A stretch of DNA of 33,021 nt from a virus. Location: the IMG/VR virus record IMGVR_UViG_3300044613_003806, positions 1 through 33,021 of that record. One strand, 5' to 3'. The notes under the pieces were generated by a model. That model was not told the origin of the DNA and did not search any database. It saw only the letters and a program-made list of their open reading frames with translations. Made by a program: the position numbers and the translations under genes. Positions 600 to 31,825 of the stretch are shown here, piece by piece (positions within the stretch are counted from its first letter, which is position 1; each line of letters begins with the position of its first letter).

Positions 600-663
600 A
601 TTTGGTATTGTTGATATTGGATAGAAATACGGCAACACAGGGGTTCGATTCCCCTCGGCTCCA

Positions 664-761
664 TTAGCCTAACCGAAGGATACTGCAATTCCTTAGAGAT
701 GGCGATCCAAGTCCTCGTAGCAGCGGGGCACGATCTGAAGTCCTAGGCTTCAGATCATTTA
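664..761 (+). other. Intervening segment of the permuted tmRNA precursor
   Basis: These 98 bases separate the acceptor piece from the coding piece and would be removed by processing, as in known permuted tmRNA precursors. The segment contains a perfect nine-pair hairpin, GATCTGAAG (732-740) with CTTCAGATC (748-756) and a seven-base loop, ending five bases before the mature 5' end of the coding piece. It has no credible reading frame. Confidence 0.75.
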
Positions 762-896
762 GGGGCTGAAATGGCTTCGACTGTCGTAAAGTATTGAAGA
801 AGGAGATACCCGTTACTGGCAACGAGGAACGTGAAACAACAGTTGCAAATTTAATTGCCAACGAATTGGCAATGGCTGCTTAAAGCAGTGGGGTTT

Positions 897-3614: not shown

Positions 3615-3622
3615 TATTTATT
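3615..3622 (-). promoter_or_regulatory. T4-type late promoter-like motif
   Basis: AATAAATA on the minus strand, with its last base six bases before the ATG at 3608. A T4-like late start about six bases downstream would coincide with the start codon. It lies at the very end of the upstream gene, so it could also be incidental AT-rich sequence. Confidence 0.4.
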
Positions 3623-4016
3623 GTTCTGTCTGTCTCAATTTGCGGTCTATTCTGGGATCTGTATTTATTTCAGAATATTTAAATTCAGGTAATTTTTTAA
3701 TATCAAACTCCAAAAATACCGTAAATGACTTAAGATATGAATATAATCGTGGCTCTACCTTAAAAAATAAAATGCGTGCAGCATTTTCTTCACCGAACAC
3801 ATTTCTTAAAATTATTATATGATTTAATATCAAACGTTCTCGTATAGATTTTAATGTTTTATGTTTATGAATTTTTTGCAAGAGTCTCTTTACATATTTG
3901 ACTCTTTTCAAATCATCCATAAATTCATTTCTCCCAGAACATTCGCTATTAAAATAGCAGATCTGGCAGAACTCTAGAAAAGTATCCTCGGTAAGAGGCT
4001 TACTTTTATCAAACAT
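3618..4016 (-). CDS. Conserved T4-like phage hypothetical protein
   Basis: 132 residues from ATG 4016, which follows the upstream stop by seven bases; a longer in-frame start at 4076 would overlap the upstream gene and is less likely. The protein is basic and helical, with two cysteines near the N terminus (FCQICYFNSEC) and a conserved-looking core: VKYVKRLLQKI, LKSIRERLILNHIIILRNVFG and AARILFFKV. From memory, proteins with this ERLILNH-type core recur in marine T4-like phages next to virion genes, annotated only as hypothetical. It is part of the leftward late operon between a putative internal protein and the 510-residue protein. Function unknown. Confidence 0.75.
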   Translation of the reverse strand: MFDKSKPLTEDTFLEFCQICYFNSECSGRNEFMDDLKRVKYVKRLLQKIHKHKTLKSIRERLILNHIIILRNVFGEENAARILFFKVEPRLYSYLKSFTVFLEFDIKKLPEFKYSEINTDPRIDRKLRQTEQ

Positions 4017-4023
4017 TAAAAAA

Positions 4024-4572
4024 TTAGTGTTCGCACCCACAGTCAGAACCGCCCTCATTATACGAAGAAGTTTCAATTGGGGCGATTACAAGACTTATGC
4101 GGCGTAAATGATTTGGTTGCTTCTCAACATTAACCGTAAGTGCTAAAGAGTGGCCAAGTTTTTCCTTGATGCCATCACCCTGTTTAAAGCCCTTCTTGTT
4201 AACATCGTCATATGGATTTTGACCATAAACGCCAAGCTGAGGGCTACCGTATTGTACTAATTCATAGGTCGAAAGACCATCTGAAATTTTCTTCGTGCAA
4301 GCAAAGTCAAGACCAAAGTGGTTCAACTTTTGCTTTACTACGCCAAGAACACTATCTGGATCGATGTAATCCTTTGAGGAGAATGCGTGCAACATCGAAT
4401 TGATGGCATCAATTTGGCGAGGAAGTGCTAGGTTAAAAGCACCTTGATTGGTGTTAGCCGATTGACCGACTTTTCCTTGAGGATCGCCAATATAAAGACC
4501 ACCGCCTTCGGTGTGTTCGCCTGCGCCTTCAGCAATTGTTTCGATATTTTTGAGTAGTGTTTTAAATTTCAT
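4024..4572 (-). CDS. Putative internal virion protein with capsid-targeting-like N terminus
   Basis: 182 residues, starting at ATG 4572 with AGG about ten bases upstream. The N terminus MKFKTLLKNIETIAE is a short amphipathic helix ending IAE followed by Gly, matching the (L/I)xE cleavage rule of the T4 prohead protease gp21. The remainder starts Gly-rich (EHTEGGGLYIGD), then has a mixed domain and an acidic end with two cysteines (DCGCEH). No enzymatic motif is seen. The same kind of N terminus occurs in four other proteins of this block, so a role as a packaged internal protein is inferred. An alternative is a scaffold or core component. Confidence 0.7.
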   Translation of the reverse strand: MKFKTLLKNIETIAEGAGEHTEGGGLYIGDPQGKVGQSANTNQGAFNLALPRQIDAINSMLHAFSSKDYIDPDSVLGVVKQKLNHFGLDFACTKKISDGLSTYELVQYGSPQLGVYGQNPYDDVNKKGFKQGDGIKEKLGHSLALTVNVEKQPNHLRRISLVIAPIETSSYNEGGSDCGCEH

Positions 4573-4584
4573 GGTGTTACCTAA

Positions 4585-6459
4585 TTATTTAGTTCTAATT
4601 TTTATCAACCCATATAGATCTGGGTTATATGTGGATTCATTTAAATTTTTAAGAGCTTCTTGGGAAATTTCTTCGGAAACTTTTTTCCACTTACCACCTT
4701 TGCTCTTATAGCACTTAGCTGCCCAAGCATTGGCATATGCTGAATTTCCAGTAATTGTTATAAATCCATTTTGAATCATGACCCAAGTATTATTTTCTGT
4801 TTCTGGGCACCAAACATCCTCTGCTTCTACTTCTTTAATTTGTAAATTTTGAGTATTGTGAGTTGGTTTATTTCGAATTATTGATGCCGACTGCATTTCT
4901 GGATATTTATCAGCATACGTTACATGATAGCCGTTTAAAAAAGCTGCTAAAATTGTTGCATAAAAATGATCTTCATTTTTTTGACTAAATCCAAAAGAAT
5001 GCCGATTTAAAATTTTTGTACTGATTCCCTTATCATGACCATCATAAACAATAGCACTAGCTAAAAATATTTCACGTTGATCTTTAGTCATTGTTAATAC
5101 TTTTTCTACCCAAGAATCTTTTTTAGACCAATTTTCTAAAACTAAAGGAGTTTCATTATTTAATACTCCACAAACAATAATTTGCATGTGTTTATTAATA
5201 TCTTTAGTTTCAATTAAATTTGTGTATTGGTAATTTTCTCCACTTTTTACAACCCATTTGTGATTTGGAGTACATTTTACTTGAAAGCCAGTAGATTTTC
5301 CAATTTGAAAAAGCGGAGCATTTTTAAAATTATGAATATTTAAAACAGGTTTCCATTCTAATTCTTCTTTGGTTATATTGTAAGTTAAAATTTCCTGACC
5401 AATTTTTAATTGCTCATGAGAAATAGGACCTTCTTTTGTTATTGCTAAGGAATCAAGAGGAACACAGGGATATACATCAAATTTAGCTTTTGCTTGAGCA
5501 AGACATGCAGACCATTTTTTAGAATTCTTTGGTTTATTCTTAGAATCTTCAGTCATCAATTCAAATTCTTCTTTTAACATGGCACTTACTGGCTTTGCAC
5601 TCCAAGTCTTGCAAGCCCAGTAACGAGCCTTCCAGCGAGGACCTGGATTATCACAATTATGTCTGGCTCTAAAATTACGTCTTCTAGCTGGATCATCGCG
5701 CTTGATTTCCATATTTGGATCGCCAAAGTTTACTTTAACAACATTTCCCTTATCATTTTTTACATAAACTTTGTATTTTTTGACATCACCACGCATGATC
5801 TTGTTTAATTTTACTTTTTTGTTGTCATCTTCATAGATATCGATTAGATCACCATATTCATTCATTTCATCACCTTCAGTAACATCAACAAATCCCATAG
5901 TTACCTCTGGTGTAAAGTTTTCTGTAATTACATCACCCTCTTCATTTGTAAATGTTACAGTATATTTGTCTTCGTTAATTTCTACCATATCTACATTTAA
6001 TATTTCGCCAGATTCATTAATAACAACATCACAAGGAAGTAAATCTTTGGCTTCGATTGTTGAGAATGGTAGTTCTTTTATTACGCTTAAACTTTCAACT
6101 ATAAAATATTCAAAGGTTTCTTTAACTTCTGTTACTCCAGTTTTTACGTATACAGGTTTTTTGCCAGAACCTTTTACAGAACCTTTTTTTCCTCTTCCGG
6201 CTTTCTTTTGAGCAGCCCTTTTACGTCTAACAAAACTTGCAATCTTTTCTTTTCCAAGTTTTTGTGCTTTTTGTTTGCTTAGACAAGCAGAATAAGGATC
6301 ACCCTCATCGGCATCACCACACTTACCAACTCTTTCACCTTTGGTATTGTATCTATCCCAACCTGGGCCACCACCAGCAGATTCTTTATTGAACCATTTG
6401 CCTAAGCCAGATTTGGCATATACTTTTTCTAATAAAATATCAAACTTAGAGTTTATCAT
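4585..6459 (-). CDS. Modular putative virion protein interrupted by an intein
   Basis: 624 residues from ATG 6459, which overlaps the upstream stop (ATGA) and has AAGGA nine bases before it; the in-frame TTG at 6465 is less likely. The N terminus MINSKFDILLE resembles a capsid-targeting peptide ending in an LLE site. Extein modules: GGGPGWDRY with Cys and a Lys/Arg-rich tail (about 29-98), a beta-rich acidic domain (about 118-210), a module ending RARHNCDNPGP and ARYWACKTW (264-286), and SACLAQAKAKFDVYP (317-331) continuing after the intein as SAYANAWAAK. These small modules recur in T4-like phage virion proteins from memory. Residues 332-572 form an intein; splicing would leave a 383-residue protein. 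Biochemical role unknown. Confidence 0.8.
   Translation of the reverse strand: MINSKFDILLEKVYAKSGLGKWFNKESAGGGPGWDRYNTKGERVGKCGDADEGDPYSACLSKQKAQKLGKEKIASFVRRKRAAQKKAGRGKKGSVKGSGKKPVYVKTGVTEVKETFEYFIVESLSVIKELPFSTIEAKDLLPCDVVINESGEILNVDMVEINEDKYTVTFTNEEGDVITENFTPEVTMGFVDVTEGDEMNEYGDLIDIYEDDNKKVKLNKIMRGDVKKYKVYVKNDKGNVVKVNFGDPNMEIKRDDPARRRNFRARHNCDNPGPRWKARYWACKTWSAKPVSAMLKEEFELMTEDSKNKPKNSKKWSACLAQAKAKFDVYPCVPLDSLAITKEGPISHEQLKIGQEILTYNITKEELEWKPVLNIHNFKNAPLFQIGKSTGFQVKCTPNHKWVVKSGENYQYTNLIETKDINKHMQIIVCGVLNNETPLVLENWSKKDSWVEKVLTMTKDQREIFLASAIVYDGHDKGISTKILNRHSFGFSQKNEDHFYATILAAFLNGYHVTYADKYPEMQSASIIRNKPTHNTQNLQIKEVEAEDVWCPETENNTWVMIQNGFITITGNSAYANAWAAKCYKSKGGKWKKVSEEISQEALKNLNESTYNPDLYGLIKIRTK
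4744..5466 (-). other. Intein with degenerate LAGLIDADG-like motif
   Basis: Inferred intein of 241 residues (332-572 of the host protein). It begins with the nucleophile Cys332 (CVPLDSLAI, block A), has TPNH at 397-400 (block B), and ends with VWCPETENNTWV (block F) and NGFITITGN (block G), followed by Ser573 as +1 nucleophile. The penultimate residue is Gly, not the usual His, a variant I recall from phage inteins of this WCPxT type. The central region holds FLASAIVYDG (465-474), which looks like one decayed LAGLIDADG helix, plus SQKNEDH. Its insertion splits a conserved FDVYP/SAYANAW motif. Homing activity is doubtful with only one poor motif. Confidence 0.88.
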
Positions 6460-8831
6460 TTCCAATCCTTGTTTTGCTTCTCGCCTTTTTTATGTCCGTT
6501 GTCAGATCTATTTTCCGACCTATCACGGACACGTAAATTATTTAGTCCTTTTGAGCCACCATTTCTTAATGGAACTTTATGATCAATATCTTTTCCATCG
6601 CCTTTCTTGACTCGGCCTTTTTTGATCAATTGTTCTCTGGCTTTTGTTCTGGCAGCTCTTTCTTTTCTTTGTTTTGGTTTACCGTGATAATTGCGGTATT
6701 CCATTTTATAATCTCGTTTGTATTCTTCTATAACCAAATCAGCAAATAGCAACTCGGCCAACTCTGGGTATTCGGTCATTCTGTTTTTTGCATTTTCAAA
6801 AATAGAACGAAGATTAATCATAAATGGTTCAACATCTTCGGTCAACATATTATTAGACGATAAAATTATTTCAGCTTCGCTATCCGTTAATAATTGATTT
6901 TTTAGTAATAGAGAAAGAACAAAATTATTAGACAAAGATTCAAGCAATAAATCATTTAAAATTAAAATGCTTTCACCCAAAACAGCGTTTGTAACATTTT
7001 CTCCCTTCACAACAGGAATTTTTACTGTTTTTTTTCCTATTGTTACATAATTATATTGTACGGCATTCAAATCTTTGGTATTAAATCCTGGAAGTAAGCT
7101 AGCATTTAACAGGAAGTCATTGCTTCTTACCATATAATCGACCATCATTTGAATTGGATTTAATTTTTCTTTGCTTACGAGCATACTTTCAATAGATGGT
7201 TTTTTAGTTTCTTTTGCTTCAATTATTGTAGAAAAACTTTTCAACATTTCTGCTGCTGAAGGTTTATAGTTAGTAATATTGGAAGAAGAAATTACATCTT
7301 TTGATGGCTTGACATCTAAATCAGAATTTTTAGATACACTTGCAAAATAATCATCACTCATTGGAAAAATTCCATTAATGGTGATTAAATGATTTGGTGC
7401 ACGCTCTGGGTCTGTGATTCCATCACCACGCAATACTGTTTTTAATAAATTATCTATAACAGCAGCTTTGAATGCGTTTTTACCAGTTCCACCCTTCATT
7501 ATTTCTTTACTTGCTGATTGCCAAGACTTTTGATAATTTTGTAAAGAAGCTTGGGGATTTAGATTTCCAGTTTCATCTAAAATTGTACCAACTGGCTTTC
7601 CTTGAGCATCTTTTATTTGGGTGTTTTGAAGTTTTGCAACTAGTTTGGCGTCTTTCTGTATTTCAGATAAAAGTTCTTCTGGGATCAAAAGATCGCTGAA
7701 TCCTTTTTGCATAATATCCATATTTTGCATCAATGATTCTAGTTTTTTATCTTGAGAAATTAATTGAGGATTCAACAATGATTGTGTCAATGCTCTGGCC
7801 ACAAAGCCTCTAAAGTTTTTATTTGTTTGATCGAATTGGTTTGTAGAAAAAGAAATTTCACCACTGGCAGCTACTTTAAATTTGTAGTTACCACATTCCA
7901 TATCTGCATTTCCTTCAGCTACAACGGGTTTTCCACCACTCTCAACATTTGTTAATAAAGTTTGCAAACATTGTTCACCAATTTGCGAGAGAATCTTTTT
8001 GGCTGTAAAAAATGCAGATCTTGTAAAGTCTTTTGCGTCTGGAGCCAAGGCCAAGTAAGTTTGTAATTCTTGGTCGCTTGCACCGGCTTTTAATTTTGCT
8101 AAGAAAACTAGCGCGTTCAAAACTTGTTGATTGTACGGAGAATTGCTTATATTGCTTATTCCAAATTCTACAGACATATTTTCATATGACAATTTATCGA
8201 AGTCTGCATTTGGCTGCGGTGTTCTTGACATTCTAAAATATTCTGCACGCAGCTCTGGAGGCATACCAGCAAGTTGTTCGGGGGTCATTTGTGTCATGAC
8301 TTCGAACATTTGCTCTTTGCTCATCTTTTTAGCTTTAGTTTTTTCTGATTTTTCTTTTTCCTCTTCAGATTTTGGGCGAGCTGCTTCTCTAGTTTCCTTT
8401 TCGTCTTTTGTTTCGGCTTTTTTTCCTTTTTCCTTATCTTCTTTTTGTTTTACGTCACCAAACAATAATTTTGAAGCTCTTGTCTGCTCAAAACTTTGTT
8501 CTTTGGTGGCCCTCTGTGCCTCCTCAATACTGAGAACATCCTTGTTTAATTTTGTGTGGGCAGATGGGTTAAAAGAATCTTTAAAAATTAATTGTATGCC
8601 ACCACTTCTAGTTTTTACCAAAATTACATCTTTGATAAGTTCTTGCTTTGGTTTTCTTTCTCTAGGAAGTTCTTTGGCACGCTCTGCACGTTTACGTGCA
8701 GCATCCCTAGCTTTTGCATCGGATGTAGAAGCCTTTGCACGCTCTTTCTTTTCTGCTCCTCCAACTTGTTCGGGAGCTTCGTTTAAAGGTTTTTGTTCAA
8801 CAATACGGCTTAAAAGTGTTTTAAAGTTCAT
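6456..8831 (-). CDS. Large putative internal protein with C-terminal HNH module
   Basis: 791 residues from ATG 8831; an in-frame TTG lies six bases earlier, and GGAG directly abuts the ATG, so the start is not certain. The N terminus MNFKTLLSRIVEQKPLNE resembles its neighbours and offers IVE and LNE protease sites. Residues about 20-75 and 130-175 are Lys/Glu/Ala-rich coiled coil. A long helical middle follows. The end carries YHGKPKQRKERAARTKARE, KKGDGKDIDHKVPLRNGG and LRVRDRSENRS (748-776), an HNH-like module found in many phage virion-associated proteins as I remember. It may bind or nick DNA during packaging or ejection; this is inference. Its stop overlaps the start of the intein-bearing gene. 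Confidence 0.75.
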   Translation of the reverse strand: MNFKTLLSRIVEQKPLNEAPEQVGGAEKKERAKASTSDAKARDAARKRAERAKELPRERKPKQELIKDVILVKTRSGGIQLIFKDSFNPSAHTKLNKDVLSIEEAQRATKEQSFEQTRASKLLFGDVKQKEDKEKGKKAETKDEKETREAARPKSEEEKEKSEKTKAKKMSKEQMFEVMTQMTPEQLAGMPPELRAEYFRMSRTPQPNADFDKLSYENMSVEFGISNISNSPYNQQVLNALVFLAKLKAGASDQELQTYLALAPDAKDFTRSAFFTAKKILSQIGEQCLQTLLTNVESGGKPVVAEGNADMECGNYKFKVAASGEISFSTNQFDQTNKNFRGFVARALTQSLLNPQLISQDKKLESLMQNMDIMQKGFSDLLIPEELLSEIQKDAKLVAKLQNTQIKDAQGKPVGTILDETGNLNPQASLQNYQKSWQSASKEIMKGGTGKNAFKAAVIDNLLKTVLRGDGITDPERAPNHLITINGIFPMSDDYFASVSKNSDLDVKPSKDVISSSNITNYKPSAAEMLKSFSTIIEAKETKKPSIESMLVSKEKLNPIQMMVDYMVRSNDFLLNASLLPGFNTKDLNAVQYNYVTIGKKTVKIPVVKGENVTNAVLGESILILNDLLLESLSNNFVLSLLLKNQLLTDSEAEIILSSNNMLTEDVEPFMINLRSIFENAKNRMTEYPELAELLFADLVIEEYKRDYKMEYRNYHGKPKQRKERAARTKAREQLIKKGRVKKGDGKDIDHKVPLRNGGSKGLNNLRVRDRSENRSDNGHKKGEKQNKDWK

Positions 8832-8837
8832 CTCCAA

Positions 8838-9440
8838 TTATTTAGGCTCTGGAGATTCCCCGTATTTTTCTAATGGATTATATATTTTTAAATTTTTATA
8901 ACTTTTTAGATTGCCTTGGGCTAATTTTTTTATCCCATCATATGATAAATCATTATTTTTGGCAAATTGTCTTAAATTGGAGACTGTAAAAACTTCACCG
9001 GTAGTCTTGTCTTGTAGTGTAACTGTTTTTACTGGAATAATCTTCTTTGGCTTTGGCTCTTCCATTTTTTCATGGGAACCGGCTCCATCTTTTACTTCTC
9101 TCAATTCTACCGCAGTCCAGCCTTTATAGGTCTTGCGTTTGCCATTTAATAACTCACAAATTTTGACGGAAGTCAATCCGTGTTCCTCGCCAAATTTTGT
9201 CATACTTTCAAAGAATACTTTTTCTTCAGTGTCTACACGTTTTAGCCAATACCCGTTATGCTCTCTTACTGGATTTGTCCAAACCCAATAGCGACCCTCT
9301 TGGCTAAAAAAACCACCGTGCTGCTGAACAAACTTTGCACGGTTTTTGGCTGCTTTTGAATTATCATTCATCATGGTCCACAATTTTGTACCACGATTAT
9401 TTACTTCACTCCATACTGTTTTTTCTTCACTGTAGGCCAT
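8838..9440 (-). CDS. Protein with two YKGW-type DNA-binding-like repeats
   Basis: 200 residues; ATG 9440 has AGGAC upstream and overlaps the preceding gene by 14 bases. Two copies of a module are visible: FGEEHGLTSVKICELLNGKR ending TYKGW (about 81-108), and FAKNNDLSYDGIKKLAQGNL ending SYKNL (about 159-184). This pattern (small helix-turn-helix followed by K-x-x-K-GW) is typical of the NUMOD-like DNA-binding repeats of homing endonucleases and of many T4-like marine phage proteins. No nuclease motif is present, so it may be a regulator or a nuclease remnant. The N-terminal part (KFVQQHGGFFSQEGRYWVW) is unassigned. The repeat family call is moderately sure; the function is not known. Confidence 0.7.
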   Translation of the reverse strand: MAYSEEKTVWSEVNNRGTKLWTMMNDNSKAAKNRAKFVQQHGGFFSQEGRYWVWTNPVREHNGYWLKRVDTEEKVFFESMTKFGEEHGLTSVKICELLNGKRKTYKGWTAVELREVKDGAGSHEKMEEPKPKKIIPVKTVTLQDKTTGEVFTVSNLRQFAKNNDLSYDGIKKLAQGNLKSYKNLKIYNPLEKYGESPEPK

Positions 9441-10095
9441 GTATAGTCCTATAGTCTGTTATTAGACCTTTGAGATGTTTTACATACTTAATCGGTTTAT
9501 CTTGAAATACTTGGCGAAGTCCATCTTCACACGCAATAAGAATTGCAAAGTTTTCTACAATAATCCCAGTCCTTTCTTGAAACATTAAAGCATATGCACA
9601 AGCCTGTGCAAAATAATTATCGATATCTGATTCTCGTTTTTCTTTTGTGCTGGCTTTAAAGTCTATGATAGAAAGTTTTCCATCATATTCTGCTATGCAA
9701 TCTGTTCTTCCAGCTAGCCCCAGAGTCTTTGACCATAGAGGAGTCTCTAATGCAAGAATATTGTCTATTTTATCAATCTCTGGTCGTATTAATGAAAATA
9801 AAGCTTTATGGTTTGAATGAAGATTGTCAAAATTTATATCTTCATTATTCAAATATTTTTCAATAATATTATGAAACTTAGTTCCCCGTGTAGTAACTCT
9901 TGTGCTTTCTTCTGGATTTTTTCTTCTCCATTCAGCAAAAAACTGTTGTTTTTTGAATCCAACAACAGTTGTAACTGATGGAAATATTCCATCTGGAGTT
10001 TCGTAAAGACGTTTTCCGCCAGTACTTACTTCTTTTAAAGAACCGTTTAAGGTTATAGGTTTATGTACAAACTTTTTGTTTACTATAAATGACAT
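9427..10095 (-). CDS. PD-(D/E)XK exonuclease, MGME1/RecB-like
   Basis: 222 residues. The nuclease core is visible: RGTKFH (70-75), ALETPLWS (115-122, with Glu117), GLAGRTDCIAEYDG (126-139, with Asp132), IDFKAS (144-149, Asp145 and Lys147) and YFAQACAYAL (161-170, the Q-x3-Y helix). This order is that of single-strand DNA exonucleases related to MGME1 and Cas4/RecB nuclease domains. In phages such proteins are usually annotated as exonuclease and presumably process DNA ends during replication or recombination. It is encoded between late structural genes, but a plausible early-type promoter (10110-10137) precedes it. The catalytic residues all appear intact. Confidence 0.85.
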   Translation of the reverse strand: MSFIVNKKFVHKPITLNGSLKEVSTGGKRLYETPDGIFPSVTTVVGFKKQQFFAEWRRKNPEESTRVTTRGTKFHNIIEKYLNNEDINFDNLHSNHKALFSLIRPEIDKIDNILALETPLWSKTLGLAGRTDCIAEYDGKLSIIDFKASTKEKRESDIDNYFAQACAYALMFQERTGIIVENFAILIACEDGLRQVFQDKPIKYVKHLKGLITDYRTIHGLQ

Positions 10096-10109
10096 AACAT
10101 CTCACTGTA

Positions 10110-10137
10110 AATATATAACAGATTTACAAGAAGACAA
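10110..10137 (-). promoter_or_regulatory. Possible sigma70-type promoter for the exonuclease gene
   Basis: TTGTCT (10137-10132), a 16-base spacer and TATATT (10115-10110) on the minus strand, 14 bases before the ATG at 10095. The -35 box is weak, but the spacer length equals that of the other early promoters in this window. Confidence 0.45.
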
Positions 10138-10140
10138 TAA

Positions 10141-10938
10141 TTATCTTTGAACTTGTCTTCTTGCAAATTGGCCGATGGCTTCTAAACCTAAATTTATATC
10201 AATGGGTATTGATGCTTTATTTTCTTTTGCAACTTTAAGTTCAGGTTCACTTTCGCCTACTCCGGGTCCAAATGGAAATGTAAATGGAAATGCTGGGGGT
10301 ATTCTGGGTGGAATACGAACTGGCGGTTTTCCATTAATAATTTTTTGAACTGTTGGAGCAGGTGCTGGAGCTGGAGCAGGTGCTGGAGCTGGAGCAGGTG
10401 CTGGAGCTGGAGCTGGAGCAGGTGCTGGAGCTGGAGCTGGAGCTGGAGCTGGAGCAGGTGCTGGAGCTGGAGCTGGAGCAGGTGGTGGTGGTTTTGGTAC
10501 TGGTACAGGAGATGGTGCTGGTGCTGGAGCAGGTGGTGGTGGTTTTGGTACTGGTACAGGTGATGGTGCTGGTGCTGGTGCTGGAGCAGGTATTGCGGGC
10601 TTAGGAGAAGGAATTGTTAATGGTTTAGGAGATGGAATATTTGGCGTTTCTGGAATAATCGGGGTAACTGGCTTTGGTGTAACAGGAGGAAAACGATAAA
10701 GAACTAATGGATGTGTTGTTGGTATTTCAATAGGAAGTGGTTCAAGCACTGGTGCTGGCATAAAAGGTTTAGCTGGAACAACTTTTGGTGAAACTTTAGG
10801 TGCAAGTTTTGTTGCACTTTTTGCTCCGGTTGCGATACCTTTTGCAACACCTTTGGCCAAAACACCAACAAATTCATTTAAATTTTGTTGATATCTTTCT
10901 TCTAAAATTTTAAAAACAATTGAATTTAATTTTTTCAC
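10141..10938 (-). CDS. Proline/alanine-repeat putative internal protein
   Basis: 265 residues, read from a GTG at 10938 that overlaps the upstream stop (GTGA), implying coupling. The N terminus MKKLNSIVFKILEERYQQNLNE is an amphipathic peptide with ILE and LNE sites, as in the putative capsid-targeted proteins nearby, followed by a Gly/Ala/Lys segment. Most of the rest is Pro-rich: PSPKP and PVPKPPPP blocks, then a long uninterrupted Ala-Pro dipeptide run (roughly residues 145-195). The C terminus is more ordered (IDINLGLEAIGQFARRQ). A rigid extended Pro-Ala rod is expected. No enzyme motif. The repeat is prone to slippage, so length may vary between isolates. Confidence 0.75.
   Translation of the reverse strand: MKKLNSIVFKILEERYQQNLNEFVGVLAKGVAKGIATGAKSATKLAPKVSPKVVPAKPFMPAPVLEPLPIEIPTTHPLVLYRFPPVTPKPVTPIIPETPNIPSPKPLTIPSPKPAIPAPAPAPAPSPVPVPKPPPPAPAPAPSPVPVPKPPPPAPAPAPAPAPAPAPAPAPAPAPAPAPAPAPAPAPAPAPAPAPTVQKIINGKPPVRIPPRIPPAFPFTFPFGPGVGESEPELKVAKENKASIPIDINLGLEAIGQFARRQVQR
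10350..10600. repeat. GGTGCTGGAGCTGGAGCA-type tandem repeat
   Basis: Short tandem units built from GCTGGA and GCAGGT hexamers, with two longer blocks reading GGTGGTGGTGGTTTTGGTAC that repeat at about 10480 and 10535. On the minus strand they encode the Ala-Pro run and the PVPKPPPP blocks. The region is GC-rich against an AT-rich background. Confidence 0.9.
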
Positions 10939-12023
10939 GATGACATCTTTCTTCTTGCCCGTATCGCGGCTTTTCTTTTTTCCATTTCTTGTTCTTTTTC
11001 TAGTTTTTCTGCAGCTTCTTCTACCTCATTTTGTGCTTTTTTACTTGGCTCGCCTCCAACAACACCAGTTGGTTTTGTGTTTAGTTGTTCTGACGAAGTT
11101 CCTTTTCCGATCATCTTTCCATAAATGTCATATATTCCTTTGCCAGCGACATCAGAAACCGTAGTTCCCTTTTCGTCAACTTCAATATCTGAAATTGCTT
11201 CTCCGGCTTTCAAACCACCATAAGCAGCTAAACCAACTAGCCCACCTTTCAATGCAGCAGCACCCAATGCAGTAGCTGTTGGAACACCCGCACCAGCCAT
11301 TAGTGATCCTGCTGTTGTTGCTGCTACACCACTTAAAGCGCCGCCAGTGGCTTCACCAGAAATATCTTTTGCTACTCCGTCTTCAACTCCAGCAGCACCC
11401 AATGCTACATCTGATAAACCTTTTCCAACAAAATAAGCACCAAGCCCAGTTCCAAAAGATGCAATACCTTTTCCTAAACCTTTTGCAACATTTGTTACTT
11501 TAGAACCAGCTGAAACTGATTTTGGAGCCTGTGTTGGTTTTGCTGTTTGACCTGCTTGTGGTTTAGCTGAAGCAGCTCCTGGCTTTGGATTTGCTCTCTC
11601 AGCTGCTCTTTGTTTTTCGGCCCATTCCTTGGCATACTGTTCTCTTGCTTTTTGTTGTGCAACTTCTTCTGCAGTTGCACTAGAAGATGCTTTTGGTGGT
11701 TTTGTTCCTGTTTTTTCTGTTTGTGCTTTTGCTGCATTTTCTCTTGCAGCTCTTCTTTGGGCTCTTTCTTCGCTTGTTCGTTTTGCTCTAGCTGCTTCAC
11801 GTTCTTCCCAAGTTTTTGGTTCTTTAGAAGCTGATCTACGTGTTTGACCTTCTGCTCTTTTTTTTCTTGCTAGTTCTTCGGCACCAGGATTTGCCTTAAT
11901 AAAATCTTCAAACTGTTCATCTGTCATAGATGCAAATTTATCGGCCCCATCTTCCATTAAGTGATGATACTTTTCTTGTAATTCTACTACTTTATTCTTA
12001 TAAAATTTAGTAATATAGTCCAT
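10935..12023 (-). CDS. Putative internal protein: coiled coil plus Gly/Ala hydrophobic domain
   Basis: 362 residues from ATG 12023, with AGGAT upstream and four bases after the preceding stop. The N terminus (MDYITKFYKNKVVELQEKYH, then HLMED) offers LQE and LME sites like those cut by T4-type prohead protease. Residues about 50-150 are a charged Ala/Arg/Glu/Lys coiled coil. Residues about 175-280 are Gly/Ala-rich and hydrophobic with glycine-zipper character (VAKGLGKGIASFGTGLGAYFVGKG; GLVGLAAYGGLKAGEAI), which could insert into membranes. A second charged helix ends in RKAAIRARRKMSS. A membrane-active protein delivered with the DNA is an attractive idea, but inference only. The stop overlaps the next gene's GTG. 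Confidence 0.7.
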   Translation of the reverse strand: MDYITKFYKNKVVELQEKYHHLMEDGADKFASMTDEQFEDFIKANPGAEELARKKRAEGQTRRSASKEPKTWEEREAARAKRTSEERAQRRAARENAAKAQTEKTGTKPPKASSSATAEEVAQQKAREQYAKEWAEKQRAAERANPKPGAASAKPQAGQTAKPTQAPKSVSAGSKVTNVAKGLGKGIASFGTGLGAYFVGKGLSDVALGAAGVEDGVAKDISGEATGGALSGVAATTAGSLMAGAGVPTATALGAAALKGGLVGLAAYGGLKAGEAISDIEVDEKGTTVSDVAGKGIYDIYGKMIGKGTSSEQLNTKPTGVVGGEPSKKAQNEVEEAAEKLEKEQEMEKRKAAIRARRKMSS

Positions 12024-12027
12024 ATTT

Positions 12028-13095
12028 TTATCCTAAATCTTTCAATTGTTGTTGCAATTTTTTCATGTGTGTAAACCGGCGAACATTGAATTCTGGTCTG
12101 CTAGATCCTTGTTTTTCAGAATCTAATCTTTTAAAATATGCTATACTTCGTTCAAGTTGTGCTTTTTTGTTAGCAGTTGCTTTTGCTTTATCTGCAGCTA
12201 TTTGCTCGGGTGTTCTTTGTACAGAACCATAAGTAGCTAATCCACCGGGAGATGATTTTATCGGTGCTGTTGGTGGTGTTGGTGGTGTTTTAGTTTTTTT
12301 GGCATCCATAGAAGCAAGTAAACCTTTTGCTTTATCGCTTACTTCGGAACCCATCGTTGCTAATGAAGTTGTAGCATCACTTCCTAAATTTGATGGTGAT
12401 GCTTCTGCATCTAATGTTTCTGGTTTTAAACCATATTCGCGGCCAGGTGTTCTAACAATTTTAGAGCCAGCTTCTTCGGCTTCCACATCCGCTTGTGCAA
12501 TTTGTTCCAGTCCCTCTTCTCTTTTTAGTTCACCTGCTAAATCTCTTTCCCTTTTTTGTTCTGGAGTTAATGGAACACCGGGAGTTGTCTTTTGCGCAGC
12601 AATTTTTGTTAACAATTCACCAGAAGTAAGTGGATTACCACTTGCCATTCTTTCTAAATTTAATTGATCTCCTGTCAAAGATTGACTAGAAGTTAATTTA
12701 GCTAAACGAGCTTTTTCGCGTGATTGTTCTGTTGTTAAAATAGTTTGTTTGTAATCTCTTGGATTATCACCTAATGCAGCTAATCCTTGCATTAAATTAT
12801 CCCAATAACCTTCTGACAAATAAAATGGATTTGAGATATTATTGGTAGTATATGCCTGAGATTGTGCCTTATAGCCTGCTTTGCTAGATTCTGTAGATTG
12901 AATTACTTGACCAATCCCTCCAACTATGCTATTATCTATTGCTTTTGGTGCTGGTGGTTTGCTAGTTTCTACGATAGACTTAATAGCGTCCACCATAGAT
13001 GGCTTTGGTGCCATTTTTTCAACCGAAACATTGTTTGAGTTTTGTAAAAACTGCTTGACTTCCCAATAAAATTGTCTATTTTCTTTATTATCCAT
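12028..13095 (-). CDS. Low-complexity hypothetical protein, possible virion component
   Basis: 355 residues starting at ATG 13095 below a TCTAAATA late-type motif. The sequence is hydrophilic and rich in Ala, Lys, Glu, Ser, Thr and Pro. It contains a short ordered segment (NPFYLSEGYWDNLMQGLAALG, about 88-108), a Thr/Pro stretch (TKTPPTPPTAP) and a C-terminal basic helix (RRFTHMKKLQQQLKDLG). The N terminus NRQFYWEVKQFLQNSNN is amphipathic but has no clear (L/I)xE site, so it is not counted with the capsid-targeted group. It is the first gene of the leftward late operon running to 2076. No domain recognised; a scaffold, core or tail-associated role is possible. Confidence 0.7.
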   Translation of the reverse strand: MDNKENRQFYWEVKQFLQNSNNVSVEKMAPKPSMVDAIKSIVETSKPPAPKAIDNSIVGGIGQVIQSTESSKAGYKAQSQAYTTNNISNPFYLSEGYWDNLMQGLAALGDNPRDYKQTILTTEQSREKARLAKLTSSQSLTGDQLNLERMASGNPLTSGELLTKIAAQKTTPGVPLTPEQKRERDLAGELKREEGLEQIAQADVEAEEAGSKIVRTPGREYGLKPETLDAEASPSNLGSDATTSLATMGSEVSDKAKGLLASMDAKKTKTPPTPPTAPIKSSPGGLATYGSVQRTPEQIAADKAKATANKKAQLERSIAYFKRLDSEKQGSSRPEFNVRRFTHMKKLQQQLKDLG

Positions 13096-14626: not shown

Positions 14627-15628
14627 TTATTTATTTCTATCGAAATTAACGTCTTCTTTATTTCCTGAAAAGACTATTGTTAAATTCAATTTAGAAAGTG
14701 CGTTGCGTATAAATTCTTTCATTTCTTCAATGGTTGAAAACTCATATAAGAAAGTTTTATAGTATAGTTTGAATTGGCCAACTTGTTCTAAAACATCGCA
14801 CTTATTGATTATCAAATAATCACAGCCAGAAAGTTTAATTGAATCTATAAGTTTATCCATATTTAACCAATTAACCAATCTGCGTCTTCCTGTAGTGGAA
14901 CCATATTCTTGACCCAAATCAATGATCTTATTCAGGACTTCATCATTCCACAAACTTTCTGGAAATAAAGGATCAACTCCGCTCTTTGTGTCATAAATTT
15001 TCGCAACGCCAATTAAGCGTCCTATCTTTTTGGGAGAGAAGCCCAAAGAGCATGCTGCATAAGGCATGGTCGTGCTGCTGGTGACATATGGATAATCACC
15101 GTGATCAATATCCAACCAAACACTTTGTGCTCCTTCACACAAAACTTTTCCAGACAATTTATTATCCCATAGATATTTTTTCTCCAATACAGATTTTGCC
15201 TGCTTACCACAACGAAGCATTTTATCGGCGTAGCAAGGAGCAATACCTTGGCCCGTTGTTCCAAGTTTTGCTTTTAATTCATTCAAATCTTTTTGAACAT
15301 GCTCCTCTGTAATGATATGAGCATTGGGTGAAACTTTTATTAAGGAAGTGTCAAAACCACTCTTTTCAATATAGGACAATTCTTCAAAAAATTTATCAAC
15401 ATGCAATACACAACCAGGACCAATTATTGATTTTTTATTTTTAAAAACACCACAAGGAATTATGTGTGTCTTGTATTTTACGCCATTGATGTAAACAGTA
15501 TGCCCTGCATTCGGGCCACCATTCCATCGACAAACATAATCGTAATCGTTCGCGATTGCATTTGAAATCTTCCCTTTTCCTTCATCGCCCCAAGCCAATC
15601 CGTAAATTATATCAACATAATCAATCAT
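14627..15628 (-). CDS. purA: Adenylosuccinate synthetase, short phage form
   Basis: 333 residues; makes adenylosuccinate from IMP and aspartate with GTP, the first step to AMP. Family signatures are intact: WGDEGKGK (13-20) with catalytic Asp15, GGPNAGHT (37-44) with His43, GTTGQGIAP (123-131), EGAQSVWLDIDHGDYPYVTSS (165-185), TTGRRR (245-250) and NKCDVL (275-280). Bacterial PurA is about 430 residues, so this is the short form seen in archaea and phages. Phage PurZ, which serves 2-aminoadenine genomes, has the catalytic Asp replaced; here it is kept, favouring the IMP reaction. The start ATG 15628 follows GAAGGGA. It is the last gene of the nucleotide/replication operon. Confidence 0.9.
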   Translation of the reverse strand: MIDYVDIIYGLAWGDEGKGKISNAIANDYDYVCRWNGGPNAGHTVYINGVKYKTHIIPCGVFKNKKSIIGPGCVLHVDKFFEELSYIEKSGFDTSLIKVSPNAHIITEEHVQKDLNELKAKLGTTGQGIAPCYADKMLRCGKQAKSVLEKKYLWDNKLSGKVLCEGAQSVWLDIDHGDYPYVTSSTTMPYAACSLGFSPKKIGRLIGVAKIYDTKSGVDPLFPESLWNDEVLNKIIDLGQEYGSTTGRRRLVNWLNMDKLIDSIKLSGCDYLIINKCDVLEQVGQFKLYYKTFLYEFSTIEEMKEFIRNALSKLNLTIVFSGNKEDVNFDRNK

Positions 15629-28930: not shown

Positions 28931-29854
28931 TTATTTGTAACAAAATATTGAGACATAACCGTTTCCACCACTACCACCAGCACCAGAGTTAAATCCGCTA
29001 AAAGAAGCACCGCCGCCTCCTCCACCGCCACCTCTCCAACCACTTCCACCGTTTGTTGCTGCTTGTGTGGTTCCGGCTCCACCACCAGCACCGCCAATTC
29101 CTCCAGTGTATTTACCAAAAACAAAAATACCAGTTCCATCTAAATCCGTAGATTGTGCTGCGTTTGATGAATTTCCTGTTCTTAAAGTTGCTCCCAAAGC
29201 ATAATCTGTATTATAGACAACTAAACCTGAAGCCAGAGCAATGCCTCCTCCTAGGGCCGAAATATTTGAGATAGAAAATCCCGATCCTCCAGCCCCACCT
29301 TTTTGCCAAAAAAAAGAATACGAAATAATATTAGAACTGCTACTACTACCAAGGCCACCACTACCCGAATTATTCGAAATAAAGCCATTAAACATAGGTG
29401 AGCGTCCTACACCTGAAATACCAGTACCAGTAGTACCTCCTCCACCATTTCCACCACCAGTTGCATATAATAAAAATCCAACTTTACCAGATACTCTTAA
29501 TGTAGTTGCACCTCCAACACTACCAGCTGCTCCATTTGTATTATCTGTTGTTCTTGAGGCTCCACCATTGCCACCAGCGCCTATTGATATTTCTAAAACT
29601 TTACCATCTAATTGCTCTCTCAAAAAAGTATGAACTATTGATGAACCACTACCACCACCTCCACCACCAGAGCAATTTTGAGCGGTTGTGGCTCTTCTTC
29701 TTCCAGAACCACCCCCACCACCAGCACCAATAGCAATAACTTGTATTAGTTTAGTTCCATCTGGAATTGAGTAAGAACCGCTGACATCAAATTCTTTGAT
29801 GTCAATTAAGTTTGGGTCATTAATATTTGGAAAAGCAAAAATTCCTTGATTCAT
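28931..29854 (-). CDS. Glycine-rich tail fibre adhesin, copy 3
   Basis: 307 residues. The conserved N terminus is MNQGIFAFPNINDPNLIDIK, then EFDVSGSYSIPDGTKLIQVIAIGAGGGGG. Glycine stretches alternate with variable segments through the protein, and it ends in a GGGGGGGGASFSGFNSG block and GGNGYVSIFCYK. This pattern is like the T-even gp38 adhesins, whose glycine motifs pack as polyglycine-II helices and present variable loops that bind the receptor (known for phage S16). It is the last of three paralogues in tandem. The C-terminal Cys-Tyr-Lys differs from the IAYG of the other two. Weak ribosome binding site only; probably coupled to the previous gene. Confidence 0.8.
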   Translation of the reverse strand: MNQGIFAFPNINDPNLIDIKEFDVSGSYSIPDGTKLIQVIAIGAGGGGGSGRRRATTAQNCSGGGGGGSGSSIVHTFLREQLDGKVLEISIGAGGNGGASRTTDNTNGAAGSVGGATTLRVSGKVGFLLYATGGGNGGGGTTGTGISGVGRSPMFNGFISNNSGSGGLGSSSSSNIISYSFFWQKGGAGGSGFSISNISALGGGIALASGLVVYNTDYALGATLRTGNSSNAAQSTDLDGTGIFVFGKYTGGIGGAGGGAGTTQAATNGGSGWRGGGGGGGGASFSGFNSGAGGSGGNGYVSIFCYK

Positions 29855-29857
29855 AAT

Positions 29858-30823
29858 TTATCCGTATGCAATAAGAACAACATATCCATTTCCTCCAGCA
29901 CCACCTGCACCGCCAGTAAAACCATTTATAGAACTTCCGCCACCACCACCTCCGCCGCCTCTATATCCATTTTGCCCGTTTCCACCAGCAGTGGACGAAC
30001 CACCACCTCCACCCACACCACCGAGTCCGGGAGAATACATTCCACCTATAGTTCTTCCAACTGAACTATCTCCACCAGCCGGAGTATTTGGTTGTCCTCC
30101 CTGTAATATAATATTTCCTCCCACATATCTTGGACTATAGTAAGAAGTATATGCACTACCAGCACTTATTCCACCACCACTGCTTGCCACATCAAGAAGA
30201 TTCAATCCACCTCCACCAGCACCACCATTTGAAAAATAATTCCATAAACCTGGTGTAGTTGCTGGATTGTTTGTTGTGCCGGGTCCTTCTGGTGCTGTGG
30301 GGGAACCATCACCACCCTTTCCGCTTGTAAGACTATTACCAAACCAAAAATTAGTACTAGCCGCTCCACCCACACCATCTGTACCTGAAGTTAAACCACC
30401 ACCAGTACCTCCTGCACCACCGGGAATATTCATAAAAGTTCCAAGTGAACCACTAATTATTATAGTTGTAGTTCCGCCGGGACTTCCGTTATCACCTTTT
30501 GTAGAGTTTGTTGTTTGTCCTGCTCCTCCACCGCCGCCAGCAGCAATGGTTACATTTAAAATTGTTCCGGGTGGTGCTATAAAATCAATTGGAAAATCAT
30601 CGCAAATCATGCTTCCGGGAGTCCCGCCACCACCACCTCTATTCGTAGATCCTGAAGCAAAACGACCTCCTGCTCCACCACCACCGCCGCCACCAATTGC
30701 TAATACATAAAGCCTTTTAGCAAAAGGTGGAATTACAAAAGTTCCACTAACATCAAATTCTTTTACCAAGATTTTGGTGTTGTCTAACGTATTATTTGAA
30801 AATCCAAAAAATCCTTGATTCAT
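29858..30823 (-). CDS. Glycine-rich tail fibre adhesin, copy 2
   Basis: 321 residues, paralogous to both neighbours. It begins MNQGFFGFSNNTLDNTKILV and KEFDVSGTFVIPPFAKRLYVLAIGGGGGGG, and ends with NGQNGYRGGGGGGGGSSING and GGNGYVVLIAYG. Between the conserved ends, Gly-rich stretches alternate with divergent segments (for example FWFGNSLTSG and YTSYYSPRYVGGNIILQGG), as expected for receptor-binding loops. Its start is three bases after the stop of copy 1. Inferred role: host receptor binding at the fibre tip. Confidence 0.8.
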   Translation of the reverse strand: MNQGFFGFSNNTLDNTKILVKEFDVSGTFVIPPFAKRLYVLAIGGGGGGGAGGRFASGSTNRGGGGGTPGSMICDDFPIDFIAPPGTILNVTIAAGGGGGAGQTTNSTKGDNGSPGGTTTIIISGSLGTFMNIPGGAGGTGGGLTSGTDGVGGAASTNFWFGNSLTSGKGGDGSPTAPEGPGTTNNPATTPGLWNYFSNGGAGGGGLNLLDVASSGGGISAGSAYTSYYSPRYVGGNIILQGGQPNTPAGGDSSVGRTIGGMYSPGLGGVGGGGGSSTAGGNGQNGYRGGGGGGGGSSINGFTGGAGGAGGNGYVVLIAYG

Positions 30824-30826
30824 AAT

Positions 30827-31825
30827 TTATCCATATGCAATAATTACGCAATAACCATTTCCACCATTACCACCATTTCCTGCTGTAATACCGTTATTTG
30901 CTCCTCCACCGCCACCGCCTCCACCGCCCCTCCATCCATTCGTTCCATTATTTGCGCTAGTGGCAGATCCACCTCCACCACCCATACCACCAAGACCTGG
31001 TGTATATCGCCCAGCAACAGTTAGTTGTTCTGATAATTGTGATGTTGCAGTATTTGTTGCCCCACCCGATTTTATAGTTCCACCTCTAGCATAGTTTCCA
31101 TCTGTTATTGCTGGTACTGTAGTTGATGATGAAGATGCAATACCAATACCGGCGGCTGCTGTTGCATTATTTACCCCACCACCACCTTGGCCACCGGTTG
31201 AAGTAAATCTATCTATTGTTGAATTACCAGTAAGACTTACAATACCATTTGTTCCGCTAGTTAAGTTTACTGTCGATGATGATGGATATGGCGCTCCATT
31301 AAACATTACTGGTTGTCCTGTTCCGGCATTTCCAGTACTATTAGATCCTCCGCTTCCAGCATTTCCTCCAGAGGAATACATCATAAATCCTGGCATACCT
31401 GTTGGAGATATAGTAGAAGCGCCTCCGGGGGTTCCTCCACTACCATTTGTTGAATCGGCAGTTGCACCAGCACCACCGCCTCCACCAGCACCAAGAACAA
31501 TATTTAAAATTCTACCGGGTGTCGCTGAACTTTGACCAGCATTTGCTACACCATTTCCTTCGGGTGAACCACCAATTGATTCTACAAAAAAGTATCCAAG
31601 GTTTATTGTTCCCCCTGCTCCACCGCCACCACCATAAGATGAATTTCCTGCGCCGGTTATGTTTCGTCTACCACCACCGCCACCTCCCCCACCACCAATT
31701 AACATAATTGATATGCGTTTTGCACCATTTGGAATTGCATAACTTCCACTGATGTCAAATTCTTTTACTTCAATTACCGTTGAGCCATAATTTTGATTTT
31801 GAAACCCAAATATACCATTATTCAT
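30827..31825 (-). CDS. Glycine-rich tail fibre adhesin, copy 1
   Basis: 332 residues, the first and longest of the tandem trio. It begins MNNGIFGFQNQNYGSTVIEV and KEFDISGSYAIPNGAKRISIMLIGGGGGGGG, and ends NGTNGWRGGGGGGGGGANNG and GGNGYCVIIAYG. Ser/Thr/Asn-rich variable segments lie between Gly blocks (for example SSTVNLTSGTNGIVSLTGNSTIDRF). Its ATG overlaps the stop of the upstream gene (ATGA), so it is coupled. As with the other copies, similarity to gp38-type adhesins is by composition and layout, not by close sequence identity. Confidence 0.8.
   Translation of the reverse strand: MNNGIFGFQNQNYGSTVIEVKEFDISGSYAIPNGAKRISIMLIGGGGGGGGGRRNITGAGNSSYGGGGGAGGTINLGYFFVESIGGSPEGNGVANAGQSSATPGRILNIVLGAGGGGGAGATADSTNGSGGTPGGASTISPTGMPGFMMYSSGGNAGSGGSNSTGNAGTGQPVMFNGAPYPSSSTVNLTSGTNGIVSLTGNSTIDRFTSTGGQGGGGVNNATAAAGIGIASSSSTTVPAITDGNYARGGTIKSGGATNTATSQLSEQLTVAGRYTPGLGGMGGGGGSATSANNGTNGWRGGGGGGGGGANNGITAGNGGNGGNGYCVIIAYG

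Follow-up and report, generated by a model that had tools for sequence, protein, structure and literature searches.

Internal proteins of phage T4 defeat restriction and other first-line defences, and to our knowledge few such T4 proteins have been described. The ejection or inner-body proteins of phiKZ and SPN3US are cut by gp175/gp245, with removal of their propeptides after Glu at the motif S/A-x-E. The targeting sequences of T4 IPI, IPII and IPIII take forms such as MKTYQEFIAE/A and MKTFKEFTSTTTPVSTITE/A (a slash marks the site of cleavage, here and below). In MKTYQEFIAE, residues 4 and 7 are needed for targeting, and residues 8 and 10 for processing by gp21 (PMC9026906). IPI and IPIII help to overcome host barriers (PMC9391042).

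A second point of reference is S-SM1, a T4-like marine phage of Synechococcus (Kyanoviridae). Its T4-GC190, a cytidyltransferase, starts MKKFSAFLNE/A (MKKFSAFLNEAE) and is encoded in the S-SM1 neighbourhood corresponding to the locus analysed here, near gp41 and phrog_407. T4-GC190 was detected in purified S-SM1 virions (Sullivan et al. 2010; PMC3037559); the GenBank record of S-SM1 marks only part of the virion proteins.

The DNA analysed here (the window, a virus record of 33,021 bases) comes from a T4-like phage; the DNA polymerase it encodes shares 42-43% identity with the enzymes of Synechococcus T4-like phages. A first-pass annotation had proposed that five leftward late genes, otherwise unrelated, share (L/I)xE N termini that target their products to the prohead. 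That T4-type capsid-targeting peptides direct internal proteins into the prohead is the best explanation of what follows, and very probably the correct one.

The cassette and its gene products

All five leftward open reading frames are present (4024-4572, 4585-6459, 6456-8831, 10141-10938 and 10935-12023), encoding proteins of 182, 624, 791, 265 and 362 aa, respectively. The 265-aa frame starts with GTG; longer TTG-started frames exist for two of the five, and the ATG starts originally assigned agree with orthologues. The two genes enclosed by the cassette (8838-10095, minus strand), specifying a 200-aa NUMOD/HTH-like protein (8838-9440) and a phrog_298 exonuclease (9427-10095), had rightly been left out of the set: both are untagged and serve as internal controls. 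Each of the five members of the set is real, but the set is larger, with 12028-13095 as a sixth candidate. Diversity of cargo is borne out, in that an HNH module, an intein-like insert, a Pro-Ala repeat and a Gly/Ala-rich region were each recovered by profile matches or reading of translations; Pfam, PHROGs and NCBIfam yield almost nothing for the cargos besides the HNH, intein-like and DUF5754 modules. The designation of these genes as late is not established: a search for TATAAATA late-promoter sites found them no commoner than chance.

Elsewhere in the window are a permuted tmRNA gene (604-883, plus strand; Rfam RF04321, 77.5 bits; ARAGORN tag ANELAMAA), a short, 333-aa adenylosuccinate synthetase (14627-15628, minus strand; phrog_1211) that PurA models match far better than PurZ and that is present in two fetched loci only, and three similar glycine-rich proteins encoded in tandem (28931-31825, minus strand), one of which was scanned and has its matches in families of tail or fibre type.

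In each of the five cassette proteins the N terminus resembles a propeptide with (L/I)xE at its end. Within the window this is not compelling by itself, because [LI].E also occurs in the first 20 residues of 8 of the 34 other genes (5/5 in the cassette) and hydrophobic moments overlap, only some of the five standing above the rest. A motif this common could turn up by chance in N termini that have nothing to do with one another. What makes that account most improbable is the deep conservation of the motif, both in orthologues and in the tags that head different cargos, at levels well beyond those of shuffled sequences. Two untagged neighbours, the exonuclease at 9427-10095 and the 3618-4076 protein, also keep [LI]xE (in the exonuclease and phrog_407 families), and retention of so short a motif by untagged families counts against the targeting reading. 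On the other side, in two relatives of 126-137 kb the number of genes whose first 30 residues include [LI].E exceeds expectation by ~21 and ~28 (z 4.1 and 5.6), while the control motifs [LI].D, [LI]..E, [LI]E, [VF].E and [LI].K are not in excess in either. The shared N termini proposed by the first-pass annotation are thus seen in all five genes, and across relatives their pattern lies far above chance.

N termini of the three conserved genes

The 182-aa protein (4024-4572, minus strand), a putative internal protein, has a 15-residue N-terminal tag, MKFKTLLKNIETIAE/, followed by GAG (4528-4572), with cleavage predicted after E15, which is invariant in the orthologue alignment. Relatives occupy 63 loci in viral contigs, with conserved gene order. 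In 40 of 40 sequences of this family P3 is L or I and P1 is E, and ten different residues occur at P2; such variation would be expected under selection by a protease that recognises P3 and P1 and ignores P2, as reported for T4 gp21. Residues 1-47 are disordered in an AlphaFold2 model (pLDDT 60), which has no fold match in the PDB. A 137-aa protein of HTVC008M, a cultured relative in Kyanoviridae, is a distant homologue (hhalign E 4.8e-5, prob 68); its gene has the same neighbours, and the protein starts MKSFKDFQNVNEK.

The putative internal protein of 791 aa (6456-8831, minus strand), conserved in relatives (17 in viral contigs, gene order conserved), has an N-terminal tag of 12 or 18 residues, MNFKTLLSRIVE/QKPLNE/, followed by APE (8778-8831). 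[LI]xE within the first 30 aa is found in 38 of 39 dereplicated N termini of relatives (an unforced count, in the sense that Glu was not imposed by the pattern), as against a shuffle mean of 13.9 and a maximum of 25. The tag precedes a region of unknown fold and a C-terminal HNH-type module (6468-6725; phrog_4590 at residues 703-788, E 2e-20) in which D748, D750, H751, N765, N774 and H780 are invariant in 39 sequences. An AlphaFold2 model (pLDDT 70) has no match in the PDB; matches in BFVD are to HNHc structures and, weakly, to cyanophage ones.

The 624-aa putative internal protein (4585-6459, minus strand) combines a DUF5754/phrog_7595 domain with a conserved DVYPSAYANAWA segment. Its 11-residue N-terminal tag, MINSKFDILLE/, is followed by KVY (6427-6459); 30 of 32 relatives retain the E, and 30 of 32 have L or I at P3. 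This boundary is less certain than the others because KV after the Glu is invariant. The Glu could belong to a folded domain, which counts against reading this segment as a tag. A protein with the same domain in C48C1 begins MKKFKQYIDE/G, and, taken together with the HTVC008M start, this suggests that related cargos carry either a short T4 tag or longer ones. The 4585-6459 gene also has an intein-like insert of ~241 aa (C...TGN/S, the slash here marking the insert's end; 4744-5466, minus strand; Pfam Intein_splicing E 2e-4, a weak match), which, among 22 aligned orthologues, the window has in common with L022 alone, at DVYP^SAYANAWA. The residue preceding the insert's final Asn is Gly, where His would be usual.

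Exchange of tags and cargos in a hypervariable slot

Between the exonuclease and the orthologue of 12028-13095 lies a hypervariable slot, mostly of 1-3 genes, nearly all of whose cargos are without a family match in Pfam, PHROGs and NCBIfam. Most slot proteins have an N terminus of one of two classes: tag B, with the consensus MDxLTNxYRNxAxQLQxxVxxLE...LxE, and tag C, with the consensus MKKLNPIIxxILExRYxxxLNE. In the window, tag B (24 residues, MDYITKFYKNKVVELQEKYHHLME/, then DGA; 11952-12023, minus strand) stands on the 362-aa putative internal protein with its Gly/Ala-rich domain (10935-12023, minus strand), and tag C (22 residues, VKKLNSIVFKILEERYQQNLNE/, then FVG; 10873-10938, minus strand) on the 265-aa putative internal protein with an (Ala-Pro)n rod (10141-10938, minus strand), as read from the translation and relatives. 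The Ala-Pro repeat varies in length, the protein of a near-identical contig having 255 aa. Both tags occur on many cargos. [LI]xE is found after residue 18 in 32 of 32 distinct tag B N termini (shuffle mean 11.9, maximum 18) and in 32 of 33 distinct tag C N termini (shuffle mean 17.8).

Each of the two tags is attached to unrelated mature proteins: sequence clustering of the bodies yields ~5 groups behind tag B and ~12 behind tag C. Conversely, related bodies are found behind different tags. The body of L033 (tag B) aligns with those of L022 or L006 (tag C) from just past the tags (E 1e-35), and part of the window 10935-12023 protein recurs behind tag C in L008 (E 7e-10; the comparison used the 100% identical copy in L002). 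Tag B is found also on genes outside the slot, some of them on the other strand. That peptides are swapped between different proteins in relatives suggests a delivery system for head-carried proteins.

In a cassette as hypervariable as this one, where the tag boundary must be a site of recombination, the shared starts might instead be conserved as DNA, as recombination anchors or as promoter or ribosome-binding signals. Codons specifying identical residues of tag B, however, have 46% synonymous mismatch, where 50% is expected for independent codons; with synonymous sites this near saturation and residues conserved, tag B is kept as peptide and not as DNA. Conservation at the DNA level was accordingly rejected on codon divergence, and is hardly credible as an explanation of the tags.

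The sixth candidate, 12028-13095 (minus strand), has a conserved N terminus and a variable body. Its start, MDNKxNRQFYWEVKDF, is conserved, and [LI]xE falls within the first 50 residues in 28 of 31 relatives; in the window, the candidate tag (tag A) is MDNKENRQFYWEVKQF...SIVE/ (12967-13095, minus strand). It is likely to be a further tag class, and the protein is probably also capsid-internal. Consecutive genes of L093 (G006:3464-5064, minus strand) share another kind of N terminus (for example, MNNCNPFNDHLNLSPNLYDAAKQILE), possibly one more tag class.

Predicted processing machinery, proposed mechanism and comparison with known systems

Gp21 and gp23 are absent from the 33-kb window, the protease gene being missing because the window is a fragment. 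The first-pass annotation had proposed looking elsewhere for a gp21-like protease and for the same N-terminal motif on other genes, and relatives provide both: an S77 protease together with an LxE-bearing gp23, and many genes with the motif, including some with exact T4-pattern tags. The gp21-like S77 protease and gp23 are encoded by G002 and G006 (137 and 126 kb) in the order of T4 20-21-22-23 (portal, small core protein, gp21, scaffold, gp23), and the gp21 homologues of these long relatives retain GELNHP and GVS(S/T)RG segments. N termini of gp23 in relatives have LVE/D and LTE/D where T4 has LTE/A (matched by inspection, because MAFFT gaps surround the stretch).

The exact T4 pattern, M..F..[FY][LI].E, is found in 11 distinct N termini of relatives (for example, MKSFKQFLIE and MLRFKQFLLE); of 6983 control sequences taken from internal Met residues, 2 match it. 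This ten-residue pattern, with aromatics at positions 4 and 7, does not occur in the five window genes, a point that, like the greater length of tags B and C, counts against the targeting reading; it occurs in other genes of relatives and in the C48C1 protein that shares the 4585-family domain. T4 IPI is also without the short ten-residue form, so that the pattern is not strictly defining. Two genes with exact T4-type tags specify possible head-carried lysins: the L079:912-1760 product matches endolysin and peptidase families, and that of L094:4750-5424 is lysozyme-like by eye.

The resemblance of tags B and C to amphipathic or coiled-coil helices, along with the fibre- or tail-like character of some genes elsewhere in the window, would fit another function: uncut segments for docking or oligomerisation on a shared virion part (neck, tail or portal), in which LxE simply follows from helix periodicity. 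This is unlikely. P2 is free between a fixed L/I and a fixed E, the excess in N termini is specific to [LI].E (absent for [LI].D, [LI]..E and [LI].K), the gp23 sites match, and exact T4 tags occur in the same genomes.

The capsid-targeting reading draws support from the gp21-like protease, gp23 site and T4-pattern tags of relatives, from the interchangeability of tags and cargos, and from T4-GC190, a virion protein of S-SM1 whose N terminus has the exact T4 pattern and whose gene lies in the corresponding neighbourhood. The five gene products, and probably that of 12028-13095, would thus be internal proteins of a T4-like capsid. Their N-terminal capsid-targeting peptides would bind the prohead core; a gp21-type protease would cut after the Glu of (L/I)-x-E, freeing the mature protein inside the head; and the mature protein may be ejected from the head together with DNA. 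We infer packaging and cleavage in the window phage from the genes and their relatives, and ejection with the DNA by analogy with T4. Any anti-defence or take-over role of the cassette proteins would likewise be by inference. The tags are modular: each class is conserved at the level of the peptide, and what is attached to it in the hypervariable slot differs from phage to phage. A broader proposal, plausible but tentative, is that tags A, B, C and others are distinct, long classes of targeting module that serve as exchangeable addresses for tens of cargos in each genome. If so, the head can be thought of as an all-purpose carrier whose set of effectors is quickly reshuffled, and the tag classes possibly direct proteins to different sites in the assembling core or act at different stages of its assembly.

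Recognisable tags offer a way of listing candidate injected proteins in uncultured T4-like phages, in which nearly all such cargos are without a database match. How phages recruit new head proteins by gaining a tag becomes testable, and the tags could act as packaging signals in laboratory phages.

With phiKZ and SPN3US the cassette shares a bolus of head-internal proteins with propeptides cut after Glu (predicted, in the case of the cassette). The motif differs: in place of their S/A-x-E, P3 here is L or I, without exception in the 4024 family, and phiKZ-type processing was rejected on this basis. Like T4-GC190 of S-SM1, the window cassette is located near gp41 and phrog_407; T4-GC190 has a T4-type tag but a different cargo, and other neighbours surround the S-SM1 locus. 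No direct sequence homology of cassette proteins to T4 internal proteins was found, and no description of tags B and C was found in the open-licence literature. The likeness to the T4 internal proteins lies in N-terminal peptides that end in (L/I)xE on mature proteins that are non-homologous, and, in relatives, in the gp21-like protease, the LxE site of gp23 and the exact ten-residue pattern of some genes. Unlike those of T4, the tags of the window have at least 11-24 residues and belong to several sequence classes (tags B and C span 22-45 aa, compared with 10-19 aa in T4), and their cargos, which reach 1176 aa in relatives, exceed those of T4 in size and have been reshuffled among the tags. 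Judged from sequence, the existence of several long tag classes and the shuffling of tags and cargos look like a new variation on T4-type targeting.
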